This document shows positions 7,073-32,249 of a stretch of 32,249 nt of DNA, in pieces (within the stretch, counting starts at the first letter, position 1; every line of letters begins with the position of its first letter). The stretch lies in assembly GCA_022841915.1 (NCBI GenBank), contig JALHQN010000036.1:1-32249 (forward strand), in the 5' to 3' direction. The position numbers and the translations under genes were made by a program. The DNA is from Burkholderiales bacterium (GTDB taxonomy: Bacteria; Pseudomonadota; Gammaproteobacteria; Burkholderiales; WYBJ01). A model generated the notes under the pieces. The model did no database searches, had not been told where the DNA came from, and saw only the letters and a program-made list of their open reading frames with translations.

Positions 7073-8521
7073 CTAGATCGATTTTCTGAGATTGACCGGG
7101 AGGATCTGCAGCGATTCGCGATATTTCGCGACGGTCCGCCTCGCAACGACAATGCCTTGCTGCCCCAGGATTTCGGATAGCTGGCTATCCGAAAGCGGTT
7201 TCTTGGTGTTCTCCGCGCTCACCAACTGCTTGATCAGCGCCCGGATCGCGGTGGCGGAACACTCGCCACCTGTTTCGGTGGCCACATGGCTGCCGAAAAA
7301 ATACTTGAGTTCGAAAATGCCCCGGGGGGTAAGCATGAACTTCTGGGTGGTCACCCGGGAGACCGTCGATTCATGCAGATCCAGGATCTGTGCGATCTCG
7401 CGCAACACCAGCGGCCGCATCGCCACCTCGCCGTGCTCGAAGAAATGGCGCTGCCGGTCGACGATCGCCTGGGATACCCGGAGTATCGTCTCGAACCGCT
7501 GCTGCACGTTCTTGATCAGCCACTTGGCTTCCTGCAGCTGGCTCGCCAGCTGCTGCGCGCTGGCATCGCGATTGCGCTGCAGGATCTGCGAATACATCCG
7601 GTTGATCCGCAGTTTGGGCATTGCATCCGGATTGAGCGCAGCCAGCCAGATGCCCTTCATCTTCTTCACCACCACATCGGGCACGATGTAGCGAGCTTCC
7701 TCACCGGCGAACGCCGCGCCGGGGCGGGGATTCAGGTTCGTGATCAAACGCTGGATCGCGCGCAGCGCGGTATCGTCGCAGTGCAAGGCCTTTTTGAGCT
7801 TGGGATAATCGCGCGCAGCCAGCAGTTCGAGATGCTGGCGGATGGTCTCGATGGCTTCGGCGCGATAGGGGGTGTTTTCCGGCATCGCTCGAAGCTGCAG
7901 TTCCAGGCATTCGGCAAGGGTACGGGCGCCTACGCCAGGGGGATCCATGTTCTGCAGCAAGCGCAAGGCAACCGAGAGTTCCTCGATCTCCACGTCGAGT
8001 TCCGGCGGCAGCATTTCCGCGATCTCTTCGAGCGGTTGCGTGATGAATCCGGAATCGTCCAGCGCGTCGATCAGCAGTGCCACCAGCGTGCGGTCTCGCT
8101 CCGAGATCGCGGTGAAGCCGGTCTGGGATAAAAGATGCTCGCGCAGGGTGGGCGTGGAAGACGCGATCTGCGGATAGTCGGAGTCGTCGTCGTCATCCCT
8201 ATGGCCGGAACCGAAACTGTCGTCCTCGAAATTCGACAGCGCGGAGGATGTTCCATCCATCGGGGAACTGTCGATCGGAGCGACTTCGGCCTCGCGCGGC
8301 GCACTCGTATCCACTTCGGTGTAGGTCTCGCTCTCCAGGCGGGAAGACGTCATGCCGTCTTGGACGTCCTCGTCGCGCTCGAGCAGTGGATTGTCTTGCA
8401 GGAACCGCTCGAGTTCCTGATTGAGTTCGAGCGTCGAGAGCTGCAATAGTCGAATCGACTGCTGCAACTGAGGCGTCAGGGTGAGGTGCTGCGATAACCG
8501 GAGCTGAAGGGAATGTTTCAT
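7073..8521 (-). CDS. rpoN: RNA polymerase sigma-54 factor RpoN
   Basis: Sigma-54 directs RNA polymerase to -24/-12 promoters and needs an AAA+ activator. The protein has 482 residues. Region I is the Leu/Gln-rich N-terminus (LTLTPQLQQSIRLLQLS), followed by an acidic region II at about 50-110. The core-binding region and a helix-turn-helix (LHESTVSRVTTQKFMLTPRG) come next. The diagnostic RpoN box ARRTVAKYRE is at 460-469. The ATG at 8521 starts 69 bases after lptB. It matters locally because a -24/-12 site precedes the pilin gene at 14527-15270 and a probable sigma-54 activator ends at the right edge. Confidence 0.97.
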   Translation of the reverse strand: MKHSLQLRLSQHLTLTPQLQQSIRLLQLSTLELNQELERFLQDNPLLERDEDVQDGMTSSRLESETYTEVDTSAPREAEVAPIDSSPMDGTSSALSNFEDDSFGSGHRDDDDDSDYPQIASSTPTLREHLLSQTGFTAISERDRTLVALLIDALDDSGFITQPLEEIAEMLPPELDVEIEELSVALRLLQNMDPPGVGARTLAECLELQLRAMPENTPYRAEAIETIRQHLELLAARDYPKLKKALHCDDTALRAIQRLITNLNPRPGAAFAGEEARYIVPDVVVKKMKGIWLAALNPDAMPKLRINRMYSQILQRNRDASAQQLASQLQEAKWLIKNVQQRFETILRVSQAIVDRQRHFFEHGEVAMRPLVLREIAQILDLHESTVSRVTTQKFMLTPRGIFELKYFFGSHVATETGGECSATAIRALIKQLVSAENTKKPLSDSQLSEILGQQGIVVARRTVAKYRESLQILPVNLRKSI

Positions 8522-14448: not shown

Positions 14449-14452
14449 CAGG

Positions 14453-14480
14453 CCAAGTCAGAATGACCAAGTCAGAATGA
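14453..14480. repeat. 14-bp tandem repeat, two copies
   Basis: CCAAGTCAGAATGA occurs twice in direct tandem (14453-14466 and 14467-14480), immediately after the antiporter stop and running into the terminator stem. It is probably a local slippage duplication. Confidence 0.8.
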
Positions 14481-14512
14481 CGAAGGCCCGCATCATGCGG
14501 GCCTTCGTCATT
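14476..14512. terminator. Bidirectional hairpin terminator
   Basis: A perfect 18-bp inverted repeat (left arm 14476-14493, right arm 14495-14512) with a GC-rich core (GGCCCGCAT) and AT-rich outer ends. It lies between the converging antiporter gene (ends 14448) and pilin gene (ends 14527) and can serve both. T-runs on either side are short, so termination strength is uncertain. Confidence 0.75.
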
Positions 14513-14526
14513 GACTCGATTGCCGA

Positions 14527-15270
14527 CTAGAACAAGCTCGCTCCGCCGCAGTTGACCTCGCCCTGAGGGATAAACCACAGGCCGGCGGTGTCCATGCATT
14601 GCAGAGGAGCATAGGCGCCCTGGGGAGCAGGGGGGGGCGCCGGTGCATTGCCCTGGTAAGTCGAGTAGCGGAAGCCGCCTCGCAAGCCGTTGCCGTCGTC
14701 GATCTTTCGATCCACCTCCGAGGCGATTTCGACCGGAACTTGCGCCCCTGTCTTCAGGTTGTGCTTGTTGGGCGGCGTCGGATTCGTGTCGGCGTAGATG
14801 CCGTCATAGCGCAGCTGCAAGAAGATGTTGTAGGGGTTCTTCGGGTTGTTGTTGTCGGTCGCCGCTGTGTCGCCGGCCGTCATCGTGTAGCTGCCGTTGA
14901 GAAAACCCGCGCTCGCAAGGTGCATCCACGCGAGAATTTCCTCGTGGACTTCCGAGGCCACGCCCCCGACGGTGATCGGAACCGCATCGGACTGGATAAT
15001 GCCGTTGCCGTTACCGTTCAGGCAGGAGTTTCCTGTCGGGCACTTCAAGGTGCTGTTGGCCGAGGCGTAGTCGCCCGGATAGGCACGGAAACGATCCTGG
15101 AAGCCGAAAAACGCGGCCTTGATGCCGTCTTGTTGGGCGATCAGATTGCGCACGCGCGCGCTCGTGATCAATTCCTGTCCCTTCAGCACCCCTCCGAGGA
15201 GCAGGCCGATAATCACGAGCACGATCGCGATTTCGATCAGTGTGAAGCCGCTTTGACGGGTTCTGGACAT
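14527..15270 (-). CDS. Type IV pilin-like protein
   Basis: Prepilin of 247 residues. The short leader MSRTRQSG is cleaved before FTLIE, with Glu at position +5 of the mature protein, and a continuous hydrophobic helix of about 22 residues follows. The ectodomain has several Cys (CPTGNSC early, C-MDTAG and VNCGG near the end), suggesting disulfide loops. It includes an RAYPGDYASA motif common in large pilins and pseudopilins. At 247 residues it is longer than a typical major pilin. ATG at 15270 is preceded by AGGGGA. It has its own 267-base leader with a sigma-54-type promoter, unlike the other two pilin-like genes, so it may be the regulated or major subunit; that is inference. Confidence 0.88.
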   Translation of the reverse strand: MSRTRQSGFTLIEIAIVLVIIGLLLGGVLKGQELITSARVRNLIAQQDGIKAAFFGFQDRFRAYPGDYASANSTLKCPTGNSCLNGNGNGIIQSDAVPITVGGVASEVHEEILAWMHLASAGFLNGSYTMTAGDTAATDNNNPKNPYNIFLQLRYDGIYADTNPTPPNKHNLKTGAQVPVEIASEVDRKIDDGNGLRGGFRYSTYQGNAPAPPPAPQGAYAPLQCMDTAGLWFIPQGEVNCGGASLF

Positions 15271-15309
15271 GATAAACGTCCCCTAAAGACGATTGAGTGA
15301 ACAGTTCTG

Positions 15310-15325
15310 TGCAATATGCATGCCG
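15310..15325 (-). promoter_or_regulatory. Sigma-54 (-24/-12) promoter of the pilin gene
   Basis: Reading the minus strand from 15325 to 15310 gives CGGCATGCATATTGCA. Against the consensus TGGCACRNNNNTTGCW it matches 10 of 12 defined positions, with the invariant GG and GC at exact spacing. The transcription start would be near 15299, about 30 bases before the pilin ATG at 15270. RpoN-dependent pilin promoters are well known, for example Pseudomonas pilA. The rpoN gene itself is at 7073-8521. Confidence 0.7.
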
Positions 15326-15466
15326 ATCGGCCTGCCGAGACTTGCTCTTTGCAGGGCTGGTGCCGGGCCTGACGCAAAGGCCATGCTAGCGCGGGACGCG
15401 CGCCTGCGGATACTTCGCGTCTTTGGTTCGAAGCCATTAAACATTATAGGTATATTCGGGGGGCGA

Positions 15467-15487
15467 TCTGATCGCGCGGCGATCAGA
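15467..15487. promoter_or_regulatory. Palindromic candidate enhancer site upstream of the pilin promoter
   Basis: TCTGATCGC and GCGATCAGA form a perfect 9-bp inverted repeat around a 3-base centre. The centre lies about 178 bases upstream of the predicted pilin transcription start, within the usual distance of an activator site for sigma-54 promoters. It also lies about 50 bases after the end of the 15538-16266 gene, but no T-run follows, so a terminator is less likely. Confidence 0.5.
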
Positions 15488-15537
15488 CAAGCCAGGGGAT
15501 AGCCCGTGCCGCTCTTTGGCGTGATGTCGTGAATTCG

Positions 15538-16266
15538 TCAGTGTCTCGTCGAACCTGTCGGAGATTCGGCGGCCTTGATGCGTTCGAGACTTTCGAGCAA
15601 CAGGATACGTTCGTGCATATCGGTAACCGTGCCACTCGCCAGCAATCCGCCCAGAAGAATGCGTGCCGCTTCGAATTCGCCCATATCCTCGAGCAGGAAG
15701 ATGTGCATCTGGCGGGCCCAGGAAGGCGCGTGTTTGCTGTGCGCCTGGATGGTACGGGCGAACTTCAGCGCCAGCGGCAGATCGTTCAATCGGTGCTTGG
15801 CCATGATTGCGCCGTGGGCAAGCCATGGCCAGCGCCGTTCTGGATCGACCAGGAACTGATCATAGGCAAGCTCGAGCATGAATCGGCTGCGCGCCGGGTC
15901 CGGCACCTGCCCATAGAGCTGGGTGGCCATCAGCAGGGGATACTGCCCGACCGGATCCAGCCGCAATGCGGTAACGAGCCACTCGGCGACACGGGGGTAG
16001 TCCAGTTCCAGATAGGGGATGCTGATGCCGGGCTGGTTGTCGAAGGCCTGCAGGTAAAGAATCAGCAGGTGCGCCGCGGGCAATCGATCGAAGCCTTGCA
16101 TGAGCGCCAGCGCAGGCCCTGCGGGCGGCGGTGTGAGTGCCGCGGCTCGTGCTGTCGGGCGGGGCTGGACCAGAGTGAACCCGACTTGCAGCGAAAGACA
16201 CAGGGCGAGCAGGATCAATGCAGACCGCGGGACCACCCGGGCCGGCCGCAGTGAGCGGCCGATCAA
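15538..16266 (-). CDS. Membrane-anchored helical-repeat (TPR-like) protein
   Basis: Protein of 242 residues with one N-terminal membrane segment (about residues 14-31) and a long helical periplasmic part. The helix pairs look TPR-like, for example YPRVAEWLVTALRLDPVGQYPLLMA (YPRVAEWLVTALRLDP then GQYPLLMA) and LPLALKFARTIQAHSKHAPSWA (LPLALKFARTIQAHS then KHAPSWA), but I see no clean TPR consensus. The TTG start at 16266 overlaps the permease stop (TTGA) and has a strong GGAGGG Shine-Dalgarno. No in-frame ATG is nearby, so translation is probably coupled to the ABC permease. I do not recognise a named family. The position between a permease and a pilin suggests an envelope role. Confidence 0.7.
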   Translation of the reverse strand: MIGRSLRPARVVPRSALILLALCLSLQVGFTLVQPRPTARAAALTPPPAGPALALMQGFDRLPAAHLLILYLQAFDNQPGISIPYLELDYPRVAEWLVTALRLDPVGQYPLLMATQLYGQVPDPARSRFMLELAYDQFLVDPERRWPWLAHGAIMAKHRLNDLPLALKFARTIQAHSKHAPSWARQMHIFLLEDMGEFEAARILLGGLLASGTVTDMHERILLLESLERIKAAESPTGSTRH

Positions 16267-17033
16267 ATTTCCCTCCGGTAGAAATCGAACAGCGCGGCTG
16301 CAATCAGCAGTGCAATCGAGATCGTCGCCTGCAGGGCGATAAGTCCGAGCACGTCCGGTGCCACGGTCTTCTCGGCGATCCATTCGGTCATTGCGAACTG
16401 GTCAAGCGCCGGGATGATGTACGCAAGCATGTCCACCCCGAAGTCGAGCGCTGGCCGTGCGCCGCCCATCTTGCCCAGCAGTGCCGTTTCCGACATCAGG
16501 CGCATGGCGGTGATCGTACGTCCCAGAAGGTAAAGTCCGAAGATTACAGTCACCGCAGGCAGCACCTGACTGAAGGTCACGATGCAGAACATGCTCAGCG
16601 CGCACACGATGGCCAGTTCGAGGAACAGCGACGTGCACCACACGACCACCACGCCGACGGGCACCGATGCCAGCATGGGCAAGGCGGCAAGCAACGCCAG
16701 GACTGCGCACACGGCAATGAAACCGCTCACTTTCCCGAGGACGTAGCTGGATCGGGGAAGGTCGAGCGATAGTACGAGCTCCAGGCCCTTCTCGTTGAAT
16801 TCACGCACCACGCTGCTGGTAATATACAAGGCCAGCATGAAGACGCTCGCCAGGCGAGCGCCGCTTGCGTAGAAGCTCCACTGCAGTCGGTCGGACTCCG
16901 TGATCGCGATCTGGTGGATGAACAGGCTGCCTGCCCAGACGAATGCGAGCACGCCTGTCGCCAGCAGGGGCAAGCGAGTGCGGTACGCCTCCAGCAGCGT
17001 GAACCGAGCGATGGTGAAAACGTGGGTATGCAC
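16263..17033 (-). CDS. ABC-2 type transporter permease
   Basis: Integral membrane protein of 256 residues with about six membrane helices and the ABC-2 permease layout. The N-terminal FTLLEAYRTRLPLL leads into helix 1, and a cytoplasmic loop SSVVREFNEKGLELVLSLD follows helix 2. That E-rich loop followed by R-x-x-Y-xxGK is typical of permeases that pair with a separate ATPase. The GTG start at 17033 has a weak Shine-Dalgarno. No ABC ATPase gene lies next to it or elsewhere in the window apart from lptB, which belongs to LPS export. The substrate is unknown. It is divergent from the histidine kinase gene and co-transcribed with the helical-repeat protein. Confidence 0.82.
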   Translation of the reverse strand: MHTHVFTIARFTLLEAYRTRLPLLATGVLAFVWAGSLFIHQIAITESDRLQWSFYASGARLASVFMLALYITSSVVREFNEKGLELVLSLDLPRSSYVLGKVSGFIAVCAVLALLAALPMLASVPVGVVVVWCTSLFLELAIVCALSMFCIVTFSQVLPAVTVIFGLYLLGRTITAMRLMSETALLGKMGGARPALDFGVDMLAYIIPALDQFAMTEWIAEKTVAPDVLGLIALQATISIALLIAAALFDFYRREI

Positions 17034-17144: not shown

Positions 17145-18833
17145 ATGACCCCGCAGCAACGCATCGTCGCCATGCCTCCCCAGATCTGGCTGGGTTCCAT
17201 GCTGCTCGCACTGCATGCAGCCCTCGCCTGGGATTTCGAGAGCGCGTGGTCCCGCGCGTTCCTGCTCGCACACGTCGGATTGTTTCTCATCTGGCAACCG
17301 ATGTGGCGGGGCGAGCGCAATCTGAGCTACAAGCACGTCGCCCTGATCATGATCATCGGCTTGGTGCTGGTCGGCTTCACCAATTGGTGGCTGATGGCGG
17401 TATGGCTCGCCGTGCTGTTCGGGCTGATCGGGGGGAACGTGCCCGGCATCCGGGAGCGTCGCCACCGGGTCGCGTCGCTGCTTGCAGCCGTCTATCTGTT
17501 GGCCATGCTGCTGGTATGGGTGGTGCCGAAACTCTTCAGCGCGCCGGAGGCGAACAGCGCGGCTGTCGACGTTCTCGTGCGCTACGGGCTGCTGGTACTG
17601 CCGGTGCTCATTATCCTGATCCGCGTCGAGCGGCTCGTCTCGGACGTCCCTCACGCCGTGGATCTGTTCTACAGCGTCATGTTGTTCCTGCTCGTCGCAG
17701 CGCTCGTGCTGGGCAGCTTCATGATCAAGGAGCTCGCGAAAGCGGCCTACCCGATGGCGCTTGCCCAGACCTTGTTGTCTATCGCCCTGCTGCTAATCGC
17801 GTTGTCGTGGCTCTGGAGCCCGCATGGCGGGTTCTCCGGCGTGGGCCAGCTGCTGTCCAGGTATCTGCTCTCGGTCGGTCTGCCGTTCGAGCGCTGGATG
17901 CAGAGTGTGGCCAATCGAGCTGAACACGACGACCAACCCGAACGCTTCCTGGTCAACGCGCTGCACGACATGCTGGAATTGCCGTGGTTGGCGGGGGTGC
18001 GCTGGCAGACGCAGGTCGACAGCGGCGAGTTCGGTCAGCCCTCGAAGTTCGACGCGGAACTGAGCTACGGCGGGCTTACCTTGACCTTCTACACGCGCTG
18101 GTCGCTGTCGCCCGCGCTGCTGCTGCACCTCAAGTTGCTCACCCGGCTGCTCGCGCACTACTACGATGCCAAGCGACGCGAGCAGCAGCAACGCCAGAAC
18201 GCCTATGCCCAGGCGATCCATGAGACCGGAGCCCGTCTCACCCATGATGTGAAGAATCTGCTGCAGTCGCTGACGTCCCTTTGTGCGGCAGCCGAGGCAA
18301 GCGGTCCAGAACGGGCGACCGAACTGCAGGCGCTGATGAACCGGCAGTTGCCGCAGATCACTCACCGACTGCAAACGACCCTGGACAAGTTGCGTGCGCC
18401 CGAAAAATCGGAAAGGATGACAGCTGTCAAAGCTTCGCAGTGGTGGGAGGCTATGACCGCTCGCTACGCACGTCGCGATGTCGTCTGCAGCGGCGGCGAA
18501 ATATCACCCCAGGCAAGCTTGCCGGGCGAACTGTTCGACAGTGTCGCCGACAATCTGATCCAGAATGCGCTCAACAAGGGGCGGGGCGAAGCGGGCTTCC
18601 GGGTGGAGGTGCATTTCTCCTGCGCCGAGACGCCGTGCCTGCGTGTGACCGATGTGGGCTTGCCGGTGCCGCCGGCAGTCGCGCGTCGGCTCTTCGATGG
18701 GCCAGTCCCTTCTCAATCCGGCCTCGGCATCGGCCTGTATCAAGCGGCGAAACAGGCGGCACAGCACGGGTACCGGCTCGTGTTGGCAAGCAACGAACCG
18801 GGACAGGTCCGCTTCGAATTAGGTCAGGGCTGA
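17145..18833 (+). CDS. Multi-TM sensor histidine kinase (PrsK-like)
   Basis: Sensor kinase of 562 residues. Residues 10-235 form seven or eight membrane helices, with no large periplasmic loop. A GAF-like segment follows (about 245-345). The phosphoacceptor helix RLTHDVKNLLQSL has His367. The ATPase domain shows an N-box (DNLIQNALNK) and a G-box (SGLGIGLYQAAKQAAQHG). The H-D-x-K-N form of the H-box and the layout resemble PrsK, the kinase of exosortase/PEP-CTERM systems; this is from memory of the family, not an alignment. No response regulator is adjacent. The probable sigma-54 activator at the right edge is a candidate partner. The gene sits alone on the plus strand inside the minus-strand pilus region. 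Confidence 0.85.
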   Translation: MTPQQRIVAMPPQIWLGSMLLALHAALAWDFESAWSRAFLLAHVGLFLIWQPMWRGERNLSYKHVALIMIIGLVLVGFTNWWLMAVWLAVLFGLIGGNVPGIRERRHRVASLLAAVYLLAMLLVWVVPKLFSAPEANSAAVDVLVRYGLLVLPVLIILIRVERLVSDVPHAVDLFYSVMLFLLVAALVLGSFMIKELAKAAYPMALAQTLLSIALLLIALSWLWSPHGGFSGVGQLLSRYLLSVGLPFERWMQSVANRAEHDDQPERFLVNALHDMLELPWLAGVRWQTQVDSGEFGQPSKFDAELSYGGLTLTFYTRWSLSPALLLHLKLLTRLLAHYYDAKRREQQQRQNAYAQAIHETGARLTHDVKNLLQSLTSLCAAAEASGPERATELQALMNRQLPQITHRLQTTLDKLRAPEKSERMTAVKASQWWEAMTARYARRDVVCSGGEISPQASLPGELFDSVADNLIQNALNKGRGEAGFRVEVHFSCAETPCLRVTDVGLPVPPAVARRLFDGPVPSQSGLGIGLYQAAKQAAQHGYRLVLASNEPGQVRFELGQG

Positions 18834-18918: not shown

Positions 18919-19722
18919 TCAGGGCAGTTTTCCCGCGGCGACCAGGCGCTGTTTGAGCACATGCGGCGACAGCCAGGTGACGATGTCGTCGAATTCCCCC
19001 GCGGTGCTGGTCGAGGGGCTGGGTGCGCGGCTAACGAAGATGGTGTCGCTGTTGCTGTTGGCGATTTCGTGGTCGCTCATCGCGGCGCAGCCTACCGCGG
19101 TGCCGCAGCCTGGAGGCAGTATGAGCGCGTTCGTGTCGGCATTGATCGCGCCCCAGCGGTTGGGTCCGTGAGAAAGAATCACGGCAACGACCGCGTTGAG
19201 CGAAGGCGGAACCTGGGTGATCGCTTCGCCCGCCGCGCAAGTGCTGGCGGAGCAAACTTGCAGCGATCCCTGCGTACTCAAGGTCAGGGTGGCTGCCGGG
19301 GCGCGCTGGGCCAGCGCGGGCGATACGCCATACCGATAGCGATTGCCCCAAGGATCGACCGAAGGCAAACCCAGCGTCACCCAGGGCACATTGCCTTCGG
19401 GCGCGACGCAGGCCCCGGCGTCGACGTCCTCGATGCCATCGTTCGGCGTGCCCGCGCCGGCTGCCGCGGTCTTGTCGGGGCAAGGCAGGTGAGGGACGGT
19501 CTGGGCGCTGGCGTAGCCCATCAGCGCCTCCTTGATCTCATCGAGTTGCCGACGGGCGTCGGCCAACTGCCGCTGCTCCACCTGCGTCGACAGGGGCACG
19601 AGAATGCTGCCGAGTATGAGTGCCATGACGAAGATCACGACGGTCATTTCGATGAGGGTAAAGCCTGCGTATCCCCTGCGGCCGCGCGAACGGTTGGGTC
19701 GCATGTGTCTCGTGCTCGTCAT
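18919..19722 (-). CDS. Large prepilin-like protein with LPCPD ectodomain
   Basis: Pilin-like protein of 267 residues. A basic leader (MTSTRHMRPNRSRGRRGYAG) precedes FTLIE with Glu+5, then a hydrophobic helix. The ectodomain carries GYASAQTVPHLPCPD, a Gly/Asp-rich loop, and PWVTLGLPSVDPWGNRYRY. The same order of motifs is in the gene directly upstream, so the two are distant paralogues. The ATG overlaps that gene's stop (ATGA). It is the last gene of the pilus operon, converging with the histidine kinase gene across 85 bases with no clear terminator. It occupies the place where MshO/MshP-type minor pilins stand in Vibrio, but I cannot assign it to either. Confidence 0.85.
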   Translation of the reverse strand: MTSTRHMRPNRSRGRRGYAGFTLIEMTVVIFVMALILGSILVPLSTQVEQRQLADARRQLDEIKEALMGYASAQTVPHLPCPDKTAAAGAGTPNDGIEDVDAGACVAPEGNVPWVTLGLPSVDPWGNRYRYGVSPALAQRAPAATLTLSTQGSLQVCSASTCAAGEAITQVPPSLNAVVAVILSHGPNRWGAINADTNALILPPGCGTAVGCAAMSDHEIANSNSDTIFVSRAPSPSTSTAGEFDDIVTWLSPHVLKQRLVAAGKLP

Positions 19723-21164
19723 TTGTATACCGTGACGTCGTTGAATGTGGCGCTCCGGCGTCGGCTTTCGAACAGATCCGCGGTCAGAACGCTGAAGTCA
19801 TTGTCACCCTCCAAATAACTCGAGGGATTGGCTCGATCACCTGCCATTGCACGTGATTGCATGATCGTGCCCGTGTTCAGTGGTCTACCGCTCACGATAA
19901 CGGCATAGCGGACACCTGCAGTAAATACGCCCGGTGAACTGACGCTAAGGCAATCGAGGCAGGGCAGCGATGCCGCGCCCGGACCGGGCTTGAATTGTTC
20001 GGCGACGGCATAGAAGACGTGCAATTTCCAATTGTTCCACCAAGCGAACCCGTGACCGAGGTTGCAAGGTAAGCCCGGCCAGCTTTCCTCCATGGCGTTG
20101 CCGCTGTCGTTGCGCGTGTTCCTGAGCAACTGCTCTGCGGTGACGCCGCCTATCATCCCGTCGGGCACGCGGCCTGCTCGCAGGCCGCTCTGGTCTGCAA
20201 AGCGATTGTTGACTGCGCTGTCGCTCGTGTCCGTCGCCCAGGGATAGCGTCCCAGGTTGGCAGGACGGACGGCATATTGATCGAGACAGGCGCTTACTTC
20301 GCGCGCCACACGCAGTTCCAGCAAGGGAACGATGTCGTCATAGGTGATGACCGCAATGCGGTCGTTCACGACTAAATCCGGCCCGATTTTCACTGGACCG
20401 CCGATGACGCCGTTATGAGTGCTATCAGCGAAGTCGGCGTTGTCTTCGCCAGCCGTGAGGTTGTCGAGGTAATTGATCGGATTGCACAGCGGCGTGTTCG
20501 TCGGTGGGCTCGCCGTGCAGCGATTGAATTGGTTGCAGTCGTCACCTAGCGTGCAGCTACGATTTTGGAGCTCAGCACCGCCTTGCCGCCGGATCACCTC
20601 GCCGGGTGCGAAGATTACAGCGACAGCGCCGCTGGGTAGCAGAGGGTCCGGATTGGTGCCGTCATGGACGATCGCCTGCGAGGCGTTTCTGACCGTGATG
20701 GTGCCTCGGGTGTCGCTGTTGAGGCAGCCTGCATCTGTCGGCGCGGCACACAGCGTTCGCGGATTGTTCTTGAACGCGTCGGATACGGCATACCATAGCC
20801 GCTCGCCGTCGCCGTCACGCAAATCAGGCAGCCCGAGCGTCCGCCAAGGCAAACGTCCCAGGCGACTTGCGGCGCTCGAGCAGGGGGTATCCGCATCGCC
20901 GTCGTTGTCCACATCGGGACAGGGCAGGTCGCCCGGCCGCTTGGGGTCCTCGAGCGGCACGGCCGATGCATATCCGATCAGGGCCGCCTTGGCCTGCGTC
21001 AATGCCTGTTGAGTGATGAGGGCGCGCTGCGCGTCGTCAGTGCTTCCGCCGCGAGTGAGCACCAGGAATGTGGATATGCCGATGACCGCGAACAGCAGAA
21101 TGCTTGCGATCAGCGCAGCACCGCGTTGGGGTCGAACGCGTGAACGCGGCGGGCGACCGGACAT
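19719..21164 (-). CDS. Large pilin-like protein lacking Glu+5
   Basis: Protein of 481 residues. A basic leader ends in QRG, then AALIASILLFAVIGISTFLVL. This looks like a prepilin peptidase site, but mature position 5 is Ala rather than Glu, as in GspK/PilX-type minor subunits thought to sit at the fibre tip. The ectodomain shares GYASA...LPCPD and PWRTLGLP with the downstream gene, then continues for 300 further residues with many Cys (about 11). ATG at 21164 is used; a TTG at 21179 would overlap the mshK stop (TTGA) and adds five residues. No adhesin domain is recognised, but the size and Cys content fit a tip protein; that is inference. Confidence 0.8.
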   Translation of the reverse strand: MSGRPPRSRVRPQRGAALIASILLFAVIGISTFLVLTRGGSTDDAQRALITQQALTQAKAALIGYASAVPLEDPKRPGDLPCPDVDNDGDADTPCSSAASRLGRLPWRTLGLPDLRDGDGERLWYAVSDAFKNNPRTLCAAPTDAGCLNSDTRGTITVRNASQAIVHDGTNPDPLLPSGAVAVIFAPGEVIRRQGGAELQNRSCTLGDDCNQFNRCTASPPTNTPLCNPINYLDNLTAGEDNADFADSTHNGVIGGPVKIGPDLVVNDRIAVITYDDIVPLLELRVAREVSACLDQYAVRPANLGRYPWATDTSDSAVNNRFADQSGLRAGRVPDGMIGGVTAEQLLRNTRNDSGNAMEESWPGLPCNLGHGFAWWNNWKLHVFYAVAEQFKPGPGAASLPCLDCLSVSSPGVFTAGVRYAVIVSGRPLNTGTIMQSRAMAGDRANPSSYLEGDNDFSVLTADLFESRRRSATFNDVTVYK

Positions 21165-21175
21165 GAGGTGGGCGG

Positions 21176-21856
21176 TCAACGAGCCGCAGAAGCGTCCGCG
21201 CCGGGCGCAGCGCCGCTCTGAGCCGGCGACTCGATTTCGCGCAGCAGGTCACGGAGCAGGTCGCGCTCGCGGCTCGAGCGCCGGGGAGTGTGCGAGTCCG
21301 TTGGATTTTGGCGTGTGGGGGGTATCGCCTCTGCCGTACCGGGACTTGGCGCAGCGCGATAGGCTTCCTTCACTTCGCCGGAATCGATTTCCAGTTGCTG
21401 CCCCACCCGCATGTCCACTACCCGTCCCGTTTGCGGGAGCTGTACCGTGACACTACCCGGGGCCGCGCCCACGCGAGAAGGCCTGACCAGCACACCGTCG
21501 TCCGACTTCCTGCCACGGACTTGCTTGTTGTTCAGCCATACGGTCGTCGCACCGTCGCTTCGCCTCACGATGCCGTTGAGCGTGACGGATCCGGAGGGTG
21601 GCGGCTGCGGCGGCTCTTGCGCCTGCGTATCGGCGACGGCGGCCTGCGGGCGTCGCCGAGCCTCGTCCATGGCCGCTCTTTGCGCCGGCGTGAAGAACAG
21701 GCGGCCCAATTCGGCGGGCGCATCCGAAGCGGGTGTGCCCGGCACCGCCCGCTGCACAATTGTCGGTGCCGGTATGGCGGGCACGGCATCGGCCGCCACG
21801 CCCCATGTCGTATGCATGGCGCCGAGCAGCGTCCAGAGCAGGCGAGATCCTGTCAC
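21176..21856 (-). CDS. mshK: MshK-like periplasmic pilus assembly protein
   Basis: Secreted protein of 226 residues with a signal peptide (cleavage near VAADA, residue 24). A Pro/Ala-rich linker follows, then a small beta domain: VTLNGIVRRSDGATTVWLNN, a GxVxV strand and VGQQLEIDSGEVKEAY. Such a domain is seen in MshK/PilP-type proteins, which link the inner-membrane complex to the secretin. It is about twice the length of Vibrio MshK because of the linker and a charged C-terminal tail (RRSSRERDLLRDLLREIE). GTG at 21856 overlaps the mshJ stop (GTGA) with GGAG at 8-base spacing. The assignment rests mainly on position. Confidence 0.65.
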   Translation of the reverse strand: MTGSRLLWTLLGAMHTTWGVAADAVPAIPAPTIVQRAVPGTPASDAPAELGRLFFTPAQRAAMDEARRRPQAAVADTQAQEPPQPPPSGSVTLNGIVRRSDGATTVWLNNKQVRGRKSDDGVLVRPSRVGAAPGSVTVQLPQTGRVVDMRVGQQLEIDSGEVKEAYRAAPSPGTAEAIPPTRQNPTDSHTPRRSSRERDLLRDLLREIESPAQSGAAPGADASAAR

Positions 21857-22470
21857 GGCTTGCGCTCCATCGGTTCCGGGTTGATCGTAATCCAGGCGAG
21901 TTCGCATTCCGCCCGCAAATTGGGCTGTGAGCGCTGGGGCGTGTCAGCGGCTGTTGCCCGCTCTAGCACGCATTGGTTGATATCGAAAGCACCGGCGTTC
22001 TGCGTTTCCAACTGCTGAAAGAAGCGCATCAGTTCCCCTTCGTGCGCCAGCCTCAGGCTGAGTTTCATCACCGACTGTGCGAGGCCCAACCGCGGCGCAT
22101 TGAGTTCCTGGGCATATGGGTAGGGCTGCTGTGTGCTGACTTGGTACTCGGCACCGAACAGCTGGGTTTGCTGGTTGGTCGTGCGCAAGGCGTCGATCCA
22201 GTTGATGCGCTGTTCCGGACCGATCAATCCTTGCTTGCGCAGCTCCTCGTAATGGGGCAAGTGACGCACGATGAGATCTCGCTCGTCGCCCGAACGCTGA
22301 AATCGGGTGCGTGCTTCACGCAGCTGATTCTCCTGGGCGACGAGGATCCGCTCGTGCTTGATGATCTCGGCGCGTGTCCAATAGATCAGGCTTGCTGCGG
22401 CCACGACGATGACCAGTAGCACACCGAGCGGCGCCTTGAGCGAATCCAGGTGGCGGCTGCTGAGCTTCAT
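21853..22470 (-). CDS. mshJ: MshJ, PilO/GspM-like inner-membrane protein
   Basis: Bitopic protein of 205 residues with a short cytoplasmic N-terminus, one membrane helix (about 14-31), a coiled-coil segment (about 35-65) and a ferredoxin-like periplasmic domain. This is the PilO/MshJ plan. The segment HYEELRKQGLIGPEQRINWIDALR (HYEELRKQGLIGPEQ then RINWIDALR) is typical of MshJ relatives in Betaproteobacteria. The start overlaps the mshI stop (ATGA), so they are coupled, as expected for partners in the alignment complex. Confidence 0.82.
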   Translation of the reverse strand: MKLSSRHLDSLKAPLGVLLVIVVAAASLIYWTRAEIIKHERILVAQENQLREARTRFQRSGDERDLIVRHLPHYEELRKQGLIGPEQRINWIDALRTTNQQTQLFGAEYQVSTQQPYPYAQELNAPRLGLAQSVMKLSLRLAHEGELMRFFQQLETQNAGAFDINQCVLERATAADTPQRSQPNLRAECELAWITINPEPMERKP

Positions 22471-24029
22471 CGTGAATCCCGGAAGATCATGTTGATGCGA
22501 AACGGGGCGCTCGTGGCCCGAATGGCGCTTTCAGTGGTCGAGCCCGACAAAGCCATGGTCGGGCTGACGTTCAGCGGCAGGCCGACGACCCTTACGTCTG
22601 CGACTGCGGCATCCTTGCGCAGCGTTTCGGCGAAGGCTGAAATGGCATCCAGTGCCACCCGGTAGTCGCCATCGAAAGGCTGAATTTCGGCTTCGATGAA
22701 AGCCGCCTGACGGCGTCCGGCGGGCGCACTGGGCGCTCCTGCGGCTTGGACATCGGCTCGGCGGGGCCCCCCGTCGGTGTCGAAGTCGCGGGAACTGTAC
22801 TTCCAGCCGAAGCTCTTGAGCCTCACGTTCGGATACTGCTCGAGCGCATGCCCCAGTACGATCATTGCATTTTCGGGCGTGCGCTTGGTCGCTTTCAGCT
22901 TCTCGGCGACCTGCACGGCCAGCAGCAGGTCGTCCGCGTTGGTGGGCGAGGCGGGGTAACCACGGCTGACCTCCTGATAGCGGCGCTGGTAATCGGCGGC
23001 CTGCGCGACCGCATGAGCCTGCTGGAAGCGCAAGTCGTAGATCTGATAGGCGTTCATCGCAAGCCAGGCGAGGGACACGACGCCCGCCAGGGCAGCGCTT
23101 GCGTACAGGGCGCGGCGCAGCTGGAAAATCTGGAAGCGCTCGGTGACCAGCTCAGGAGCGAGATTGCCTCGCGGCGGCAGGGCACCGAGATAGTGCAGGT
23201 AGAGGGCTTCTGGCGTATCGGCGACCACCATGTCGGGCACGCCCGTGCGCTGGCGGATTTCACCCGCGTCGATGACGCTCGCCTGGGCATTGGAGATCTC
23301 GCGTGCAACCGCTTGTTCCAGGCCGGAGAGGCTGCCGTCGCGGTTCAGCGCAACGACGGCCAGATGCTCGTCCAGGGTCATTACGCGCAGCGCGTGCAGA
23401 TAGAGTCGGGTGTTTGCGATCTCTTCGGTGAATGCGGCGACCCGGTCGCGGGTGTCGGCATTCTCGACCTGGGTCAGCCGGCTGACGCGTAGCTTGCCGT
23501 GGCGAAAAAACGTGAGCCGCAATCCGGAAGGGTGGCGCGCGACGAGCAGCAGGTTCGCTGCGTCCGGTGCGAGCTTCTGTGCCAGGGTTTCGGCGATGAC
23601 AGGAAGCAGGTAGACGCCGGCCACGGGAAGATCGTGAGCGCGGATCTGCGTGAGCCAGACATCGAGCAGATCAGGGTTGAGCAAAGCGAAGAAGAGGTAC
23701 TGGTCGTCTCGGCGCTTGCCGGTGTCCCGCCCCTGGAGCAGTGCGCCGCAGTACGGCGTGTTTCGGTACAGCTGGCGCAGGCGGCGATCGAGCAGCTCCG
23801 AGCGGTCGCGTCCGCTCGCGTGAGGCAGCATTTCGTACCGGTAGTCCTCCTCGACCACGTCGACGAGAACGTGCGCGGGCACGTTGCGCAGCTGCCCGAG
23901 ATATCGATCGAAGGCTGCGAGGCCCTGCTCGTCGTTGCCGAAGACTTCGCAGCGACCGAGCTTGCCGTTGCGCGAGAGGCCCGCGGTCACCCGATCGGCG
24001 GTGACGCAGATCAGCAGCTTGTCGGCCAT
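22467..24029 (-). CDS. mshI: MshI, PilM/PilN-type fusion protein
   Basis: Protein of 520 residues joining two functions that are separate genes in type IVa pili. Residues 1 to about 280 are an actin-like PilM-type domain (MADKLLICVTADRVTAGL, then LNPDLLDVWL and LLPVIAETLAQ). A membrane helix at about 307-330 is followed by a PilN-like periplasmic part with a coiled coil (AQAADYQRRYQEVSRGYP) and a small alpha/beta domain. ATG at 24029 is preceded by GGAAGG at 5 bases; the TTG at 24071 is much weaker. It should sit between the MshE/MshG motor and MshJ/MshK. Confidence 0.85.
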   Translation of the reverse strand: MADKLLICVTADRVTAGLSRNGKLGRCEVFGNDEQGLAAFDRYLGQLRNVPAHVLVDVVEEDYRYEMLPHASGRDRSELLDRRLRQLYRNTPYCGALLQGRDTGKRRDDQYLFFALLNPDLLDVWLTQIRAHDLPVAGVYLLPVIAETLAQKLAPDAANLLLVARHPSGLRLTFFRHGKLRVSRLTQVENADTRDRVAAFTEEIANTRLYLHALRVMTLDEHLAVVALNRDGSLSGLEQAVAREISNAQASVIDAGEIRQRTGVPDMVVADTPEALYLHYLGALPPRGNLAPELVTERFQIFQLRRALYASAALAGVVSLAWLAMNAYQIYDLRFQQAHAVAQAADYQRRYQEVSRGYPASPTNADDLLLAVQVAEKLKATKRTPENAMIVLGHALEQYPNVRLKSFGWKYSSRDFDTDGGPRRADVQAAGAPSAPAGRRQAAFIEAEIQPFDGDYRVALDAISAFAETLRKDAAVADVRVVGLPLNVSPTMALSGSTTESAIRATSAPFRINMIFRDSR

Positions 24030-24099
24030 GCCTGCCTGCCTTCCAATGATTGCATTGAGGAGCGGGCGCAACGTCGCGCCGGCGGGAGCGCGCGCGATC

Positions 24100-25305
24100 T
24101 CATATCGTCAGCTTGCCCAGAATATCGTACACCGGTGCCAGCACTGCCCAAAGGATGAAGGCGAGGATGATGCCCAGGGCCATCGTCAAGGCAGGCTCGA
24201 TGAACTTCATCGCCTTGTCCACAGATTCGCGCACGTCGCGCCCGTAGAAGTAGTTGATGTTCATGAGGGTCGTGTCGAGCGCACCGGTCGCTTCACCCAG
24301 GCGCAGCATGCGCACCACGAGCGGCGGAAAAATGCCGATGTTCTGAAACGCTTCGGCAAGGCTGTCGCCCGCGGTGATCTGCTGGGTGGCGCGCCGCAGC
24401 CCGTCAGCGATGACGCGATTGCCCACGATCTCCTCGCTGTTTCGTAGCGCGTCGAGCACGGTGATGCCGGATCGGTACATCATGGCGAAGAAGCTGGCGA
24501 AGCGCGCGAGAATGATCTTCTGCAGGATCGGGCCGGTGATCGGCATGCGCAGCTTGGCGTAGTCCCAAAGGTAGCGGGCTTTTTCGCTGCGCCGGATCCA
24601 GATCGCCATCGGGACGATGACCACGATCGGGAGCACGATCAAAAGCGGCCACCAGATGCGCAACTGGTCGGAGAGGAAGGTCAGCATGCGCGTTTGAATC
24701 GGGACTTCGACGCGCATGGTCTTGATGAGCTGCGTGACCTGAGGCACCAGCCACACGAGCAGGAACAGCACGACCGCGCTTACGACCAGCAACACCAGCG
24801 ACGGATAGATCATCAAGCGCTTGGTCATGGACGTCAGTTCGTCTTGCCAGCGCAACGAGGCTCCCAGGCTTTCGAACACTTCCGGCAGCGTCCCGGCGAG
24901 TTCGCCTGCGCGAACCAGGCTCACGAACACGGTGGTGAAGACGTTCGGATGCGCGGCCAGGCATTGCGAGAGCACCTTGCCGCCCTCCATGTCCTCGATC
25001 ACCGTCGTGAGGATTTCGCGAAAGCGCGGGTTGTCCATGCCGTCGCGCAGATCGCGCAAACCGTCGATGAGCGGAATGCCGGCGCGGGATATCTGCTCCA
25101 GATCGACGCAGAAAGTGATGAGGTCGAGTCGTGAAACCTTCCCGCGCGCGCCTCGTGCGCCGGATTTCTCCTGCACACGATACGTGATGAGATCCAGGCC
25201 CATGCGCCGCAGCCGAAGTTCGAGGTCGACTTCATTGGCCGCTTCCAGCGAACCGCGGGCAGGGCGGCCCTGTTTATCGATGGCTTTGTAGGTGAATGCG
25301 GACAT
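24100..25305 (-). CDS. mshG: MshG, pilus platform protein (PilC/GspF family)
   Basis: Inner-membrane platform protein of 401 residues. It holds two GspF domains, one before and one after the central membrane helices: about 65-185 (LEQISRAGIPLIDGLRDLRD, LVRAGELAGTLPEVFE) and about 265-390 (FFAMMYRSGITVLDALRNSE, MLRLGEATGALD). Membrane segments lie around 168-190, 215-240 and at the C-terminus (LTMALGIILAFILWAVLAPVY, shown as LTMALGIILAFILWAVL). The N-terminus MSAFTYKAIDKQGRPARG is typical. It follows mshE by 16 bases and is expected to rotate with the MshE hexamer and lift pilins. Confidence 0.94.
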   Translation of the reverse strand: MSAFTYKAIDKQGRPARGSLEAANEVDLELRLRRMGLDLITYRVQEKSGARGARGKVSRLDLITFCVDLEQISRAGIPLIDGLRDLRDGMDNPRFREILTTVIEDMEGGKVLSQCLAAHPNVFTTVFVSLVRAGELAGTLPEVFESLGASLRWQDELTSMTKRLMIYPSLVLLVVSAVVLFLLVWLVPQVTQLIKTMRVEVPIQTRMLTFLSDQLRIWWPLLIVLPIVVIVPMAIWIRRSEKARYLWDYAKLRMPITGPILQKIILARFASFFAMMYRSGITVLDALRNSEEIVGNRVIADGLRRATQQITAGDSLAEAFQNIGIFPPLVVRMLRLGEATGALDTTLMNINYFYGRDVRESVDKAMKFIEPALTMALGIILAFILWAVLAPVYDILGKLTI

Positions 25306-25321
25306 GCGGGCCGGGGCGTGC

Positions 25322-27025
25322 TCAGGTGTAGCGGCCGGTCAGGTCGACCGCCCGGGACACTTCGCCGATGGTCGTGCTGCCATCGATCACGCGCGCGATG
25401 CCCTCATCGGCGAGGGGGCGGAAGCCTTTGCTCAAGGCCAGCGTGCGCAGTTCGCGCGTCGTTGCCCGGCGGGCCACCAGTTCGTCCAGGTCGCTGTCCA
25501 TGACGAGAATTTCCATGATGGCCATCCGACCTTTGAAGCCCTTGTTGGCGCACTGCTTGCAGCCCACCGGGCGGTACAGGTTGACGCTCGAGGACGCCCG
25601 GTTGCCGAGCAGCTTGCGCTCCTCGGGTGATGGCAGATAAGCCTCCTTGCAGAAGGGGCAGAGCACTCTAACCAGGCGCTGCGCGATGACGCCGATGATG
25701 TTGCCCGACATGATGTCGGGCTGGATGCCGATATCCATCAGGCGCGGAAACGCGCCGAGCGCGGAGTTCGTATGCAGCGTGGTGAATACCTGGTGGCCCG
25801 TCATCGCGGCGCGAAACGCCATCTCGGCCGTCTCGCGATCGCGAATTTCGCCGACGAGAATGATGTCCGGATCCTGACGCATGATCGAGCGGATGCCGTT
25901 GGCGAAATCCATCTTGATCGCCTCGTTCACCGACGTCTGCCGCATGAGGTTCAGCGGATATTCGACCGGATCCTCGAGTGTCATGATGTTGACTGTCTCG
26001 TCGTTGATCTCGGCCAGCAACGAGTACAAGGAGGTGGTCTTGCCGCTGCCGGTGGGGCCGGTGACGATGAGAATGCCTTCCGGGCGCGCCAGCATGAGCC
26101 GCAAGCTCGGCATGGACTCGGCAGCGATGTTCATCCGGTCGAGACTGATGATCGACTTTTCCCGGTCCAGCACCCGCAGCACGATGTTCTCGCCGTGGAT
26201 GGTCGGCTGGGTGGAGACCCGGAAATCGATCGGGCGGCCGTTCAAGGTCAGCGAAATCCGACCGTCCTGCGGCGCGCGCGTCTCGGCGATGTTCATCTCG
26301 CTCATCACCTTGATGCGAACCGCGATGCCCGGCCAGTAGGTCTTGTGCAGGCTGCGCACCTGCTCGAGCACGCCGTCGATGCGAAAGCGGATGCGCAGGA
26401 ATGCGTATTCAGGCTCGAGATGGATGTCGGATGCGCCGCGCTTGACCGCGTCGACCAGCAGGGCGTTGACCAGGCGCACCATCGGCTGGGTGTACTCGTC
26501 GCCGATGGCCTGCAGACTTTGGTAATCGATCTCGCCGGTTTCGATCTCGCGCAGGATGCCGTCGACCGACAGCTCGAAACCATAGAACTGGTCGATGAAG
26601 TCTTCCAGCTGGGCTTCGGCGGCCAGCAGGGTTTTGAGTTCGACGCGCTGGCCGAGCATCGCTCGCAGCTGATCCAGCGCCACGACGTTGAACATGCCCG
26701 AAGTGGCGACTGTGAGCGCCCGCTCGTCGGGGTCCCATGCGATCGGCAGCACGCGATGCCGACGAGCAAACTCCTGCGGGACGAGCCGCAACGCCTCGGC
26801 ATCCGCGACGACCTGCGACAGATCGATCGACTCCTGGCCCACCGTGCGAGCCATCGCATCGCGGATCGCGGCTTCGGTGACGAAGCCCAGGCGCACCAGC
26901 TGACGACCGATCGGTGTGTTGTTCGATTTCTGTTCGGTCAGACCGATGCGCAGCTGATCGGTCGTGATCAGCCCCTGCTGAACCAGCAGTTCCCCTAGGC
27001 GCAGTTTCTTTCTTTGCTCGGCCAA
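25322..27025 (-). CDS. mshE: MshE, pilus extension ATPase with c-di-GMP-binding MshEN domain
   Basis: Secretion/pilus ATPase of the GspE/PilB/MshE family, 567 residues. The N-terminal MshEN domain shows the paired motif RLGELLVQQGLI (9-20) and LGxxLV-type GRQLVRLGFV (40-49) with LTEQK between, the pattern known to bind cyclic di-GMP in Vibrio MshE. The ATPase core has Walker A GPTGSGKT (about 322-329), an Asp box (HLEPEYAFLRIRFRIDG, after SDI), Walker B (DIILVGEIRD) and the His box (TGHQVFTTLHT). A zinc tetracysteine follows (CPFC then CKQC). The start is TTG at 27025 with a weak Shine-Dalgarno; no ATG is close. It is separated from mshN by 236 bases, the only real break in this operon. Confidence 0.95.
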   Translation of the reverse strand: MAEQRKKLRLGELLVQQGLITTDQLRIGLTEQKSNNTPIGRQLVRLGFVTEAAIRDAMARTVGQESIDLSQVVADAEALRLVPQEFARRHRVLPIAWDPDERALTVATSGMFNVVALDQLRAMLGQRVELKTLLAAEAQLEDFIDQFYGFELSVDGILREIETGEIDYQSLQAIGDEYTQPMVRLVNALLVDAVKRGASDIHLEPEYAFLRIRFRIDGVLEQVRSLHKTYWPGIAVRIKVMSEMNIAETRAPQDGRISLTLNGRPIDFRVSTQPTIHGENIVLRVLDREKSIISLDRMNIAAESMPSLRLMLARPEGILIVTGPTGSGKTTSLYSLLAEINDETVNIMTLEDPVEYPLNLMRQTSVNEAIKMDFANGIRSIMRQDPDIILVGEIRDRETAEMAFRAAMTGHQVFTTLHTNSALGAFPRLMDIGIQPDIMSGNIIGVIAQRLVRVLCPFCKEAYLPSPEERKLLGNRASSSVNLYRPVGCKQCANKGFKGRMAIMEILVMDSDLDELVARRATTRELRTLALSKGFRPLADEGIARVIDGSTTIGEVSRAVDLTGRYT

Positions 27026-27261
27026 CGCTCGAATCGATCCGTTGTGTAGTCAGTCTGAATTATGGCGCGGAGCCCGTGTGCGTCTGTTGCGCAGTACGCA
27101 TGGCTCGGCTCGGTCGGCCGGTGTTCGCACTCGCCGCCGAAGGAAAATAGCACGTGCGGCCAGGGCGGGGCGAATCCGACCGACCTGCTTTCACTCCAGA
27201 GCGCCGAGCCGGTTTGCGCGCGAACCCGCCATTCGTCGTTCCTGCTGCATCCGGGCCCAGT
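27026..27261. other. 236-base gap inside the pilus operon, upstream of mshE
   Basis: No gene is supported. On the minus strand CATAAT lies about 40 bases before mshE, but without a matching -35. TCGGTCGG and CCGACCGA form a distant inverted repeat near 27113-27120 and 27177-27184. A separate promoter or mRNA processing site for the mshE half of the operon is possible but not shown. Confidence 0.4.
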
Positions 27262-28785
27262 TCACGGTCGCTCGGACAGGGCCGCTTCGAGGCTTCGAAT
27301 GCGTGCCTGCACCGGTGCCAGAGCGAATTGCGCGTTGCCGCGAGCCTGCGCGATCGACACGGCGCGACGATAGTAGTCGAGGGCGAGCTTCTGCTGGCTC
27401 AGGTGTTCCAGGCCGACAGCCAGATTGAACGCGTAGTCCGGATTGTCCGGCGCCATGTTGACCGCCTGGAAGTACGCGCTTTGCGCGGCGGCCCACTGGC
27501 CTTGTTCGGAATAGAGGTTGCCCAGGGAGAAGTACAGGAAGGCGGACGGTTCGCGCGCAATCAATTGCTTCAGGCGGGATTCAGCGGCGGTCGGGTCGGC
27601 GCGTCCGCTGATGTTGAGCAGCCCGGCCTGCGCATAGGCATTGCGCGGCTCCTGTTCGAGGATGCGCAGATAAAGCTGAGTCGCGGCATCACCCCGGTTC
27701 TGCTGCGCGAGCACGCTGGCCAGGCCGAGCATGCCGTCGATACTGCGGGGTTCCGCGGTCAATACTTGGCGATAAAGGCGCTCGGCGTCGTTCAGCTGGC
27801 CTTTTTCCAGCGCCTGGTAAGCGGCCAGCAGATCGCTGCTGACCGGCACGACCTGGGCGGTCGATGGGCTGGTTTCCGCAGGAGTGCGCGTGGCCGTGGT
27901 GCGTGGCGGCGCTTTAGGCGGCGCAGCGGTTGCCTTGGGTGAAACGGTCGCAAGAGAGCCGCTCGGCGGGATGACGGATCCTGATCCTGTGGCGGGCGGC
28001 TGGGTTCTGGACGCGGGTGTCGCGGCCGTTGCCGGTGATGCTCCCGTCGCGCCTGCCGGGGGGGCAATCGCATTACGCGCGGGCGCTGGTGCTGCCCCAG
28101 CCGGCGCAGATTGGCTTTGTTGGGCGGTAGCGGCGGGGGCAGTGGGAGCAGCCGAGGCCCGCGGCTCTGCAGGCGCGCCTGCCTGCGGCGGCGCCGTGGC
28201 CAGAAGTGAGGGCGGGGCGTCGGGCATTGCGGCGACCGAGGGCGGCTCCGGGGCGAGTTGCGGTTGGGGCGGTTCGGCGGGCACCGAGGCCATGGGTGCC
28301 GGAGGCGCGGGCGCTTGGGGCGGAGGCGAGGCCACGGGCCCGGGTGGCGCCGTCACTGGGCTCGCCATGAAGATCCCGGGGTTCGTGATTTGCAGATAAA
28401 GATAGATGCCGTAGCCGATGGCGAACAGACCTGCGGCCGTGCTGAATGCCACCAGCGGCCGGCGCGCGACCCAGTCGAGTACTCCGGGCGAGGAAGCGGG
28501 CGGTGGCGCGGGCCGAGCGCTTGCACGCAATACCGTCTGCGCTTGAGCCGGGCTGGCCGCGGGAATGCGCCCGGAGCCGGAGGCCGCCGCAGGGCTGCTC
28601 GCAGACGCACGTGGCTTCGGCGCGGCCGCAGGCCGCTCCGGCCGCTCGGTAGGCTCGATTGGCTCCAGAGACAATCCGCTCTCGGTGTCGTTGCGCGGTT
28701 CGGGTGGCGCGGTGGTGTCGGAACCGGGTGTGCCCGCCTCGCGGTTCTTGGCAGCGTTTTGCAGGGCTTTCAGCAGCAGGCTCAT
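27262..28785 (-). CDS. mshN: MshN, membrane-anchored TPR protein with Pro/Ala-rich linker
   Basis: Protein of 507 residues. A short cytoplasmic start (MSLLLKALQNAAKNRE, typical of MshN) is followed by a low-complexity stretch and one membrane helix at about 110-132. A very long Pro/Ala/Thr-rich periplasmic linker runs from about 140 to 310, and four or five TPR units run from about 315 to the end (for example KGQLNDAERLYRQVLTAEP and GNLYSEQGQWAAAQSAYFQA). The linker could span the periplasm so that the TPR part reaches the secretin; that is inference. The ATG overlaps the mshL stop (ATGA). The opposite strand over the linker is open in several frames, an artefact of composition. Confidence 0.88.
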   Translation of the reverse strand: MSLLLKALQNAAKNREAGTPGSDTTAPPEPRNDTESGLSLEPIEPTERPERPAAAPKPRASASSPAAASGSGRIPAASPAQAQTVLRASARPAPPPASSPGVLDWVARRPLVAFSTAAGLFAIGYGIYLYLQITNPGIFMASPVTAPPGPVASPPPQAPAPPAPMASVPAEPPQPQLAPEPPSVAAMPDAPPSLLATAPPQAGAPAEPRASAAPTAPAATAQQSQSAPAGAAPAPARNAIAPPAGATGASPATAATPASRTQPPATGSGSVIPPSGSLATVSPKATAAPPKAPPRTTATRTPAETSPSTAQVVPVSSDLLAAYQALEKGQLNDAERLYRQVLTAEPRSIDGMLGLASVLAQQNRGDAATQLYLRILEQEPRNAYAQAGLLNISGRADPTAAESRLKQLIAREPSAFLYFSLGNLYSEQGQWAAAQSAYFQAVNMAPDNPDYAFNLAVGLEHLSQQKLALDYYRRAVSIAQARGNAQFALAPVQARIRSLEAALSERP

Positions 28786-30605: not shown

Positions 30606-30647
30606 CGATTTCACCTCTGTTCTACGCCATTCCGGCATCCGCAACGG

Positions 30648-32180: not shown

Positions 32181-32183
32181 GGC

Positions 32184-32249
32184 TTATTGGTCTTCCGCCC
32201 CCTCTTGCGCGCCGTAGTTCTGGATGCGGCTGTAGAGCGTGGTGCGGTG
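32184..32249 (-). CDS. C-terminal end of a probable sigma-54 activator (partial)
   Basis: Only the last 21 codons are present, running off the right edge: HRTTLYSRIQNYG then AQEGAEDQ and a TAA stop at 32184. The segment R-T-T-L-Y-x-R-I-x-x-Y-G is the recognition helix and end of a Fis-type helix-turn-helix, as found at the C-terminus of NtrC/PrsR-type sigma-54 activators. It lies 3 bases upstream of mshM on the same strand, so it is the gene before mshM in the operon. The AAA+ and receiver domains, if any, are outside the window. Confidence 0.6.
   Translation of the reverse strand, partial: HRTTLYSRIQNYGAQEGAEDQ

Follow-up and report, generated by a model that had tools for sequence, protein, structure and literature searches.

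How is a pilin gene switched on when it lies apart from the machinery that its product needs? The locus analysed here (the window, a stretch of 32,249 nucleotides from a Burkholderiales bacterium) raises this question because its pilin gene is separated from an MSHA-like machinery operon by an upstream gene, a gene for a permease-like membrane protein and a gene for a membrane histidine kinase (Table 1). The operon comprises genes for a pseudopilin, four unassigned proteins, MshG-like and MshE-like proteins, a TPR protein, an MshL-like secretin and an AAA/SPOR ATPase; because the secretin narrowly missed the MshL model (TIGR02519, 247.1 of 250.2 bits), we call the system MSHA-like only. The best NCBIfam matches of the first machinery ATPase (30648-32180; TIGR03015) and of the TPR protein (27262-28785; TIGR02917) were to PEP-CTERM system families, both well under cut-off, and that of the kinase (17145-18833) was likewise PEP-CTERM-related (PrsK, under cut-off). 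The genome has a second pilin gene (L158, C3:58296-59018), 64% identical and far from the machinery. Two or three tandem pilin copies stand at the pilin locus in two other genomes (G025:C11:14-1781 and G032:C58:20491-21999), and the pilin loci of four metagenome records titled Bordetella parapertussis (L037, L051, L062, L089) resemble those of Betaproteobacteria, which makes the names look doubtful.

Table 1. Coordinates of the features considered in the window.
Feature	Position	Strand	Basis or remark
rpoN, sigma-54 factor	7073..8521	minus	in window, family match
Pilin gene, 247 aa, class III signal (N_methyl)	14527..15270	minus	Pfam PF07963 and translation
-24/-12 sigma-54 promoter element of the pilin gene	15325-15310	minus	sequence and conservation; expected start about 15299
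21-bp palindrome proposed earlier	15467-15487	no strand	not conserved
Third dyad TGACGAATTCACGACA, strongest in the window, overlaps the second	15525..15540	minus	16.4 bits
Second dyad, weak, spaced 20 bp from the distal dyad	15536..15551	minus	9.9 bits; 12.7 bits at the same place in the sister species
Distal candidate activator dyad CGCCGAATCTCCGACA	15556..15571	minus	14.6 bits; aligned with the distal dyad of the sister species
Upstream gene (281 aa) without a family match, its 3' end covered by the dyads	15538..16383	minus	
Membrane protein, ABC-2 permease-like by eye; no family match	16263..17033	minus	
Membrane histidine kinase, proposed sensor	17145..18833	plus	HATPase_c; co-occurs with the activator
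MSHA-like machinery operon	18919..32180	minus	same gene set in related clusters
3' end (last 66 bases) of the sigma-54 activator gene, first gene of the operon	32184..32249	minus	contig overlap and domains

An earlier, sequence-only reading of this DNA had placed a sigma-54 promoter, with GG and GC at exact spacing, in the pilin leader, and we found it there. Read on both strands, the leader holds CGGCATGCATATTGCA on the minus strand, with ten bases between GG and GC, in agreement with the consensus TGGCAYR-N4-TTGCW; the element ends 40 bases before the pilin ATG (15270), and the expected start falls 29 bases before that ATG. A match of this kind is by itself common (ten sites score ≥10 on the two strands of the window, the pilin site included), and its significance comes not from rarity but from conservation. 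We compared the window with 80 related pilin loci from named genomes, the best 80 of at least 447 relatives; 79 of these 81 have at least 280 bases upstream and form the leader set (the loci are mutually related, and merging similar leaders gives 71 groups). A -24/-12 element (score ≥10, 120 to 30 bases before the ATG) was kept in 68 of the 79 leaders vs. 25 of 3950 shuffled leaders, as the earlier reading would have it for related genomes. T stands first at 51/68 of these sites and TT precedes GC at most of them, letter counts that describe the sites and do not test them further, as the score demands GG and GC and rewards the other consensus letters. The conservation supports well the view that the pilin promoter is a real and widely conserved sigma-54 promoter, from which transcription would need sigma-54. 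We consider it extremely improbable that the pilin gene is instead transcribed by sigma-70, with the -24/-12 element having no role in this strain: a TATAAT does occur on the minus strand (15448-15443), some 175 bases upstream of the ATG, but it is absent from the sister species, the -24/-12 element is conserved, and no sigma-70 pair was found in 15250-15620.

The same reading took a perfect 9+9 bp palindrome upstream of the promoter to be the activator site. The palindrome is indeed present (TCTGATCGC-GCG-GCGATCAGA, some 178 bases upstream of the expected start); a perfect 9+9 palindrome with a gap of up to 12 arose in only 7/300 shuffles of the 300-base leader. However, the whole window holds 18 such palindromes (vs. 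1 to 8 in five shuffles), so that the one at 15467-15487 has been picked from many, and it is confined to this genome: in each of the other 78 leaders the closest counterpart carries 6 to 9 mismatches over 18 positions, none of these leaders (0/78, in the set drawn from the best 80 of at least 447 relatives) comes within five mismatches, and the sister species, whose pilin is 91% identical, has unrelated sequence at this position and retains the promoter and the dyads described below. The palindrome is thus not conserved with the promoter, and the search for further genomic copies that the earlier reading had suggested gave, at up to two mismatches, a single other match, inside an open reading frame. 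Given its absence from the other 78 leaders, the palindrome is probably not the activator site, an assignment that we now regard as very improbable. Its position, about 50 bases past the last stop codon of the upstream genes, and its ability to fold as a 9-bp stem would also suit a 3' hairpin or terminator of those genes; we think this unlikely, as no T run follows it, it is not among the results of the terminator scan, and leader hairpins are not stronger than those of shuffles (z of -1.0 for the window, mean z of -0.6 over 62 loci), which leaves the terminator unsupported. No Rfam family was found in 14400-15700.

It is a different inverted repeat that recurs far upstream in the leaders. A matrix built from such repeats describes a 16-bp dyad with a consensus of about CGTCGAAAAATCGACA, in which the third base from either end is variable. 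When the matrix was tested on held-out leaders (four-fold, with similar leaders confined to one fold), dyads of >12 bits were found in 65/79 leaders, themselves from the best 80 of at least 447 relatives, vs. 21/1580 shuffles. With the matrix from all leaders, two dyads of >8 bits each lie exactly 20 bp apart in 51/79; this full matrix, trained on the same leaders, gives both dyad and promoter in 62/79, the promoter only in 6, the dyad only in 3 and neither in 8, and puts the dyad centre at a median of 209.5 bases from the expected start (range 64 to 273). The window's own dyads are weaker than average; together they span 15525-15571, and their centres lie about 233 to 264 bases ahead of the expected start. 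Lying upstream of the palindrome by about 40-100 bases, the dyad has the features expected of an enhancer site: it is an inverted repeat, it is conserved, and it stands at looping distance ahead of a -24/-12 element. The enhancer had been misassigned to the palindrome. At the second pilin gene (C3:58296) we found no dyad and no -24/-12 element near the start; two scores of 9 lie more than 470 bases upstream.

The dyad often overlies the neighbouring gene. Among 69 near leaders with a dyad of >10 bits, it falls wholly within the 3' coding part of the upstream gene in 43, across the stop in 6 and past the stop in 7, and the upstream gene was not found in 13, in 11 of which the kinase gene adjoins the leader; the window's strongest dyad (15525-15540), which sits where that coding region ends, was counted as past its stop. 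Coding constraint can therefore add to dyad conservation in the 43 leaders of the first kind. Of 15 dyad-bearing distant leaders, 3 carry the dyad inside the upstream gene and 10 past its stop; in the other 2 the stretch holds no such gene. The dyad is thus not wholly inside the upstream gene, or the gene was not found, in 26/69 near and 12/15 distant leaders; judged from these positions, coding constraint alone does not explain dyad conservation.

We also searched the whole genome for the plain dyad consensus with up to 3 mismatches, which gave 37 places vs. 14 for a reversed control. The 30 of these 37 places that were examined include no dyad pair; four are single sites of >15 bits, none with a -24/-12 element of ≥9.5 within 400 bases downstream. 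Since the plain-consensus search misses the window's own dyads, it says little about a wider regulon.

The candidate activator is encoded at the other end of the locus. The last 119 bases of the window (32131-32249) are identical to the first 119 of contig C3, so that the two contigs probably adjoin each other in the genome; by this overlap the activator gene, L165, ends inside the window, its stop codon (32186-32184) followed after three bases by the ATG (32180) of the first machinery gene. L165 (493 aa in all) opens the machinery operon and encodes an NtrC-type response regulator with a receiver domain, a sigma-54 AAA+ domain with GAFTGA and a Fis-type HTH (Pfam, alignment). The receiver, Walker A, GAFTG and HTH residues are all kept in 14 aligned activators, and the THD-KN-LQ box in 14 aligned kinases; in 13/13 fetched stretches that hold it, the activator gene stands directly before the ATPase and secretin genes. 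L165 scores 357 of 558.6 bits with the NtrC model TIGR01818, below its cut-off, and the NtrC of this genome is a different protein (L160, 707.3 bits, over the cut-off); what the earlier reading called nitrogen-sigma control should not be read as nitrogen control of the pilin.

The kinase and the activator occur together across genomes. With cut-offs of our own choosing (for the kinase about 1e-70 in a first and 1e-40 in a second set, for the activator about 1e-115 and 1e-110), the kinase was found in 25 of 60 genomes (ours among them), and the activator in all of these and in G041; a set of 274 genomes drawn from the class comprises 38 with the kinase and 40 with the activator, 37 of which have both. 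The class-wide exceptions are G258 (64% complete), with the kinase and no activator, and G091, G275 and G324, with the activator and no kinase. The two are thus jointly inherited, as a cognate pair should be, in 25/25 relatives and in 37/38 genomes class-wide. Both are kept even though they are far apart in some genomes (about 170 kb in G022), so that their co-occurrence is more than the inheritance of a single block. A cultured relative, Thiobacillus thioparus DSM 505 (L079), carries the kinase gene as well as a related pilin. In G041, the sole exception among the relatives, the cluster is complete on one contig (C8:1-16500, L224), from the pilin through the upstream gene and the permease to the pseudopilin and the machinery; the interval that separates permease and pseudopilin has no kinase gene, and the activator frame, of 361 aa, matches residues 125-491 only and is missing the receiver domain. 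The absence of kinase and receiver together is expected if the kinase serves the receiver. Upstream of the G041 pilin gene there is a -24/-12-like site at -103, and no dyad exceeds 12 bits.

The DNA elements were scored in the same genomes. Among the 25 kinase-bearing relatives, a -24/-12 element of ≥9.5 precedes the tested pilin copy in 23 (G013 scores 9, and G025 has none there), and a dyad of >12 bits is on the sense strand in 18 and not in 7. Of seven pilin-like genes in kinase-free relatives, six have no -24/-12 element of ≥9 within 200 bases and none (0/7) has a dyad of >12 bits, a soft control, as six of the seven are more distant pilins. In 20 kinase-side regions from distant genomes of the class, a motif search found a prepilin gene in 16 and not in four; with the matrix unchanged, both strands scored and no shuffle baseline, a dyad of >12 bits accompanies 15/16 of these genes and a -24/-12 element of ≥9.5 accompanies 13/16.

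Of 15 sigma-54 activator matches in the genome, eight are strong (>200 bits), and the promoter could be sigma-54 dependent and yet served by one other than L165, above all by a general PilR (L164, which we take to be PilR from its resemblance). NtrC, GlrR-like, NifA-like, L163 and L166 were examined by family, and L162 and L164 by co-occurrence profiling; neither L162 nor L164 has a distribution that follows the kinase, and both were rejected as candidates. Orthologues of L164 (E up to 1e-115) are present in 44/60 genomes, 21 of them without the kinase, no L164 orthologue was found in G002 and G003, which have promoter and dyads, and both L162 and L164 are unlinked to the pilin locus. Even though the TGT/GTCT elements of reported PilR sites (PMC6058289) are loosely like the dyad halves, we judge control by PilR or by another activator to be decidedly unlikely.

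We consider it very probable that a dedicated two-component, sigma-54 circuit made up of the kinase, L165, the dyads and the promoter switches on the pilin gene. The membrane kinase (17145-18833) would phosphorylate L165; L165 would bind CGTCGAAAAATCGACA-type dyads, normally two copies 20 bp apart and here within 15525-15571; the bound activator would reach the promoter by DNA looping; and the pilin gene would be transcribed from the sigma-54 promoter at 15325-15310. The sequence-only reading had further held that pilin control is separate from that of the machinery operon. This holds for the promoter itself, no like promoter having been seen before the machinery: in 15 stretches scanned, single elements occur before the activator or the machinery, but a dyad of >12 bits together with a -24/-12 element of ≥11 was found in none, so that the machinery operon is probably not under the same control. 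It does not hold for the circuit, whose likely activator is the operon's first gene; on the gene order and sites described here, the pilin is likely under sigma-54 control that is tied to the machinery operon.

A two-component pair acting with sigma-54 at a pilin gene is already known. In commensal Neisseria, Nps/Npa and RpoN are reported to control pilE (PMC6528607); nps and npa form one operon there, and, by the abstract, pilE is the only gene controlled in this way among those for pilus biogenesis and function. The likeness, at the level of the published description, is that of a two-component pair acting via sigma-54 on a pilin gene; in contrast, kinase and activator are here at opposite ends of the MSHA-like operon. 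PilS/PilR, reported to control pilA with sigma-54 in Pseudomonas and Azoarcus (PMC6058289, PMC3262810), likewise comprise a membrane kinase and an NtrC-type regulator and act with a -24/-12 promoter before the pilin gene; however, our genome has a separate PilR candidate, L164, with its own kinase, and our dyad is unlike the reported TGTN11AGA and GTCT elements. PrsK/PrsR and the PEP-CTERM sigma-54 motif, a -24/-12 element with an upstream motif before single genes, offer a third parallel; the upstream motif ends in TTTACA and lies about 63 bases before its promoter motif (PMC1569441, PMC9850573). A similarly shaped kinase, a Fis-type sigma-54 regulator and an upstream motif with a -24/-12 element are common to both, whereas the dyad here is CGTCGAAAAATCGACA and lies about 210 bases before the start. 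PrsK (TIGR02916) is the closest NCBIfam model to our kinase, weakly so at 59.5 of 300 bits, and L165 scores 356.3 of 502.6 bits with PrsR (TIGR02915), both below cut-off. The locus shares with the Vibrio MSHA system an MshL-like secretin and an ATPase with an MshEN domain, although our secretin falls just under the MshL model; we know of no local sigma-54 pair at the Vibrio MSHA locus. Among the titles and abstracts searched, we found no description of a kinase/activator pair at an MSHA-like locus, which is weak evidence of novelty, as subscription journals were mostly outside the search. With its general design already known from Nps/Npa and PilS/PilR, the module described here looks new.

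Since the machinery operon includes the activator gene, production of the pilin may depend on production of the machinery, which we offer as an idea and not as a result. That this amounts to a class-wide pilin switch, in which the activator is made with the machinery and then turns on the pilin via distant paired dyads as a checkpoint on the order of assembly, is a tentative proposal that we hold to be possible rather than probable; if it is true, pilin would be made only while its export machine is made, and the kinase would perhaps read pilin or the state of the surface. For experiments, the site to mutate would be the dyads at 15525-15571 and not the palindrome at 15467-15487. The proposed circuit would supply a regulator, a sensor and a searchable, testable DNA site for an MSHA-like pilus system found in many families of the class, and would account for the link between a pilin gene that seems isolated and machinery genes at a distance of about 4-17 kb.
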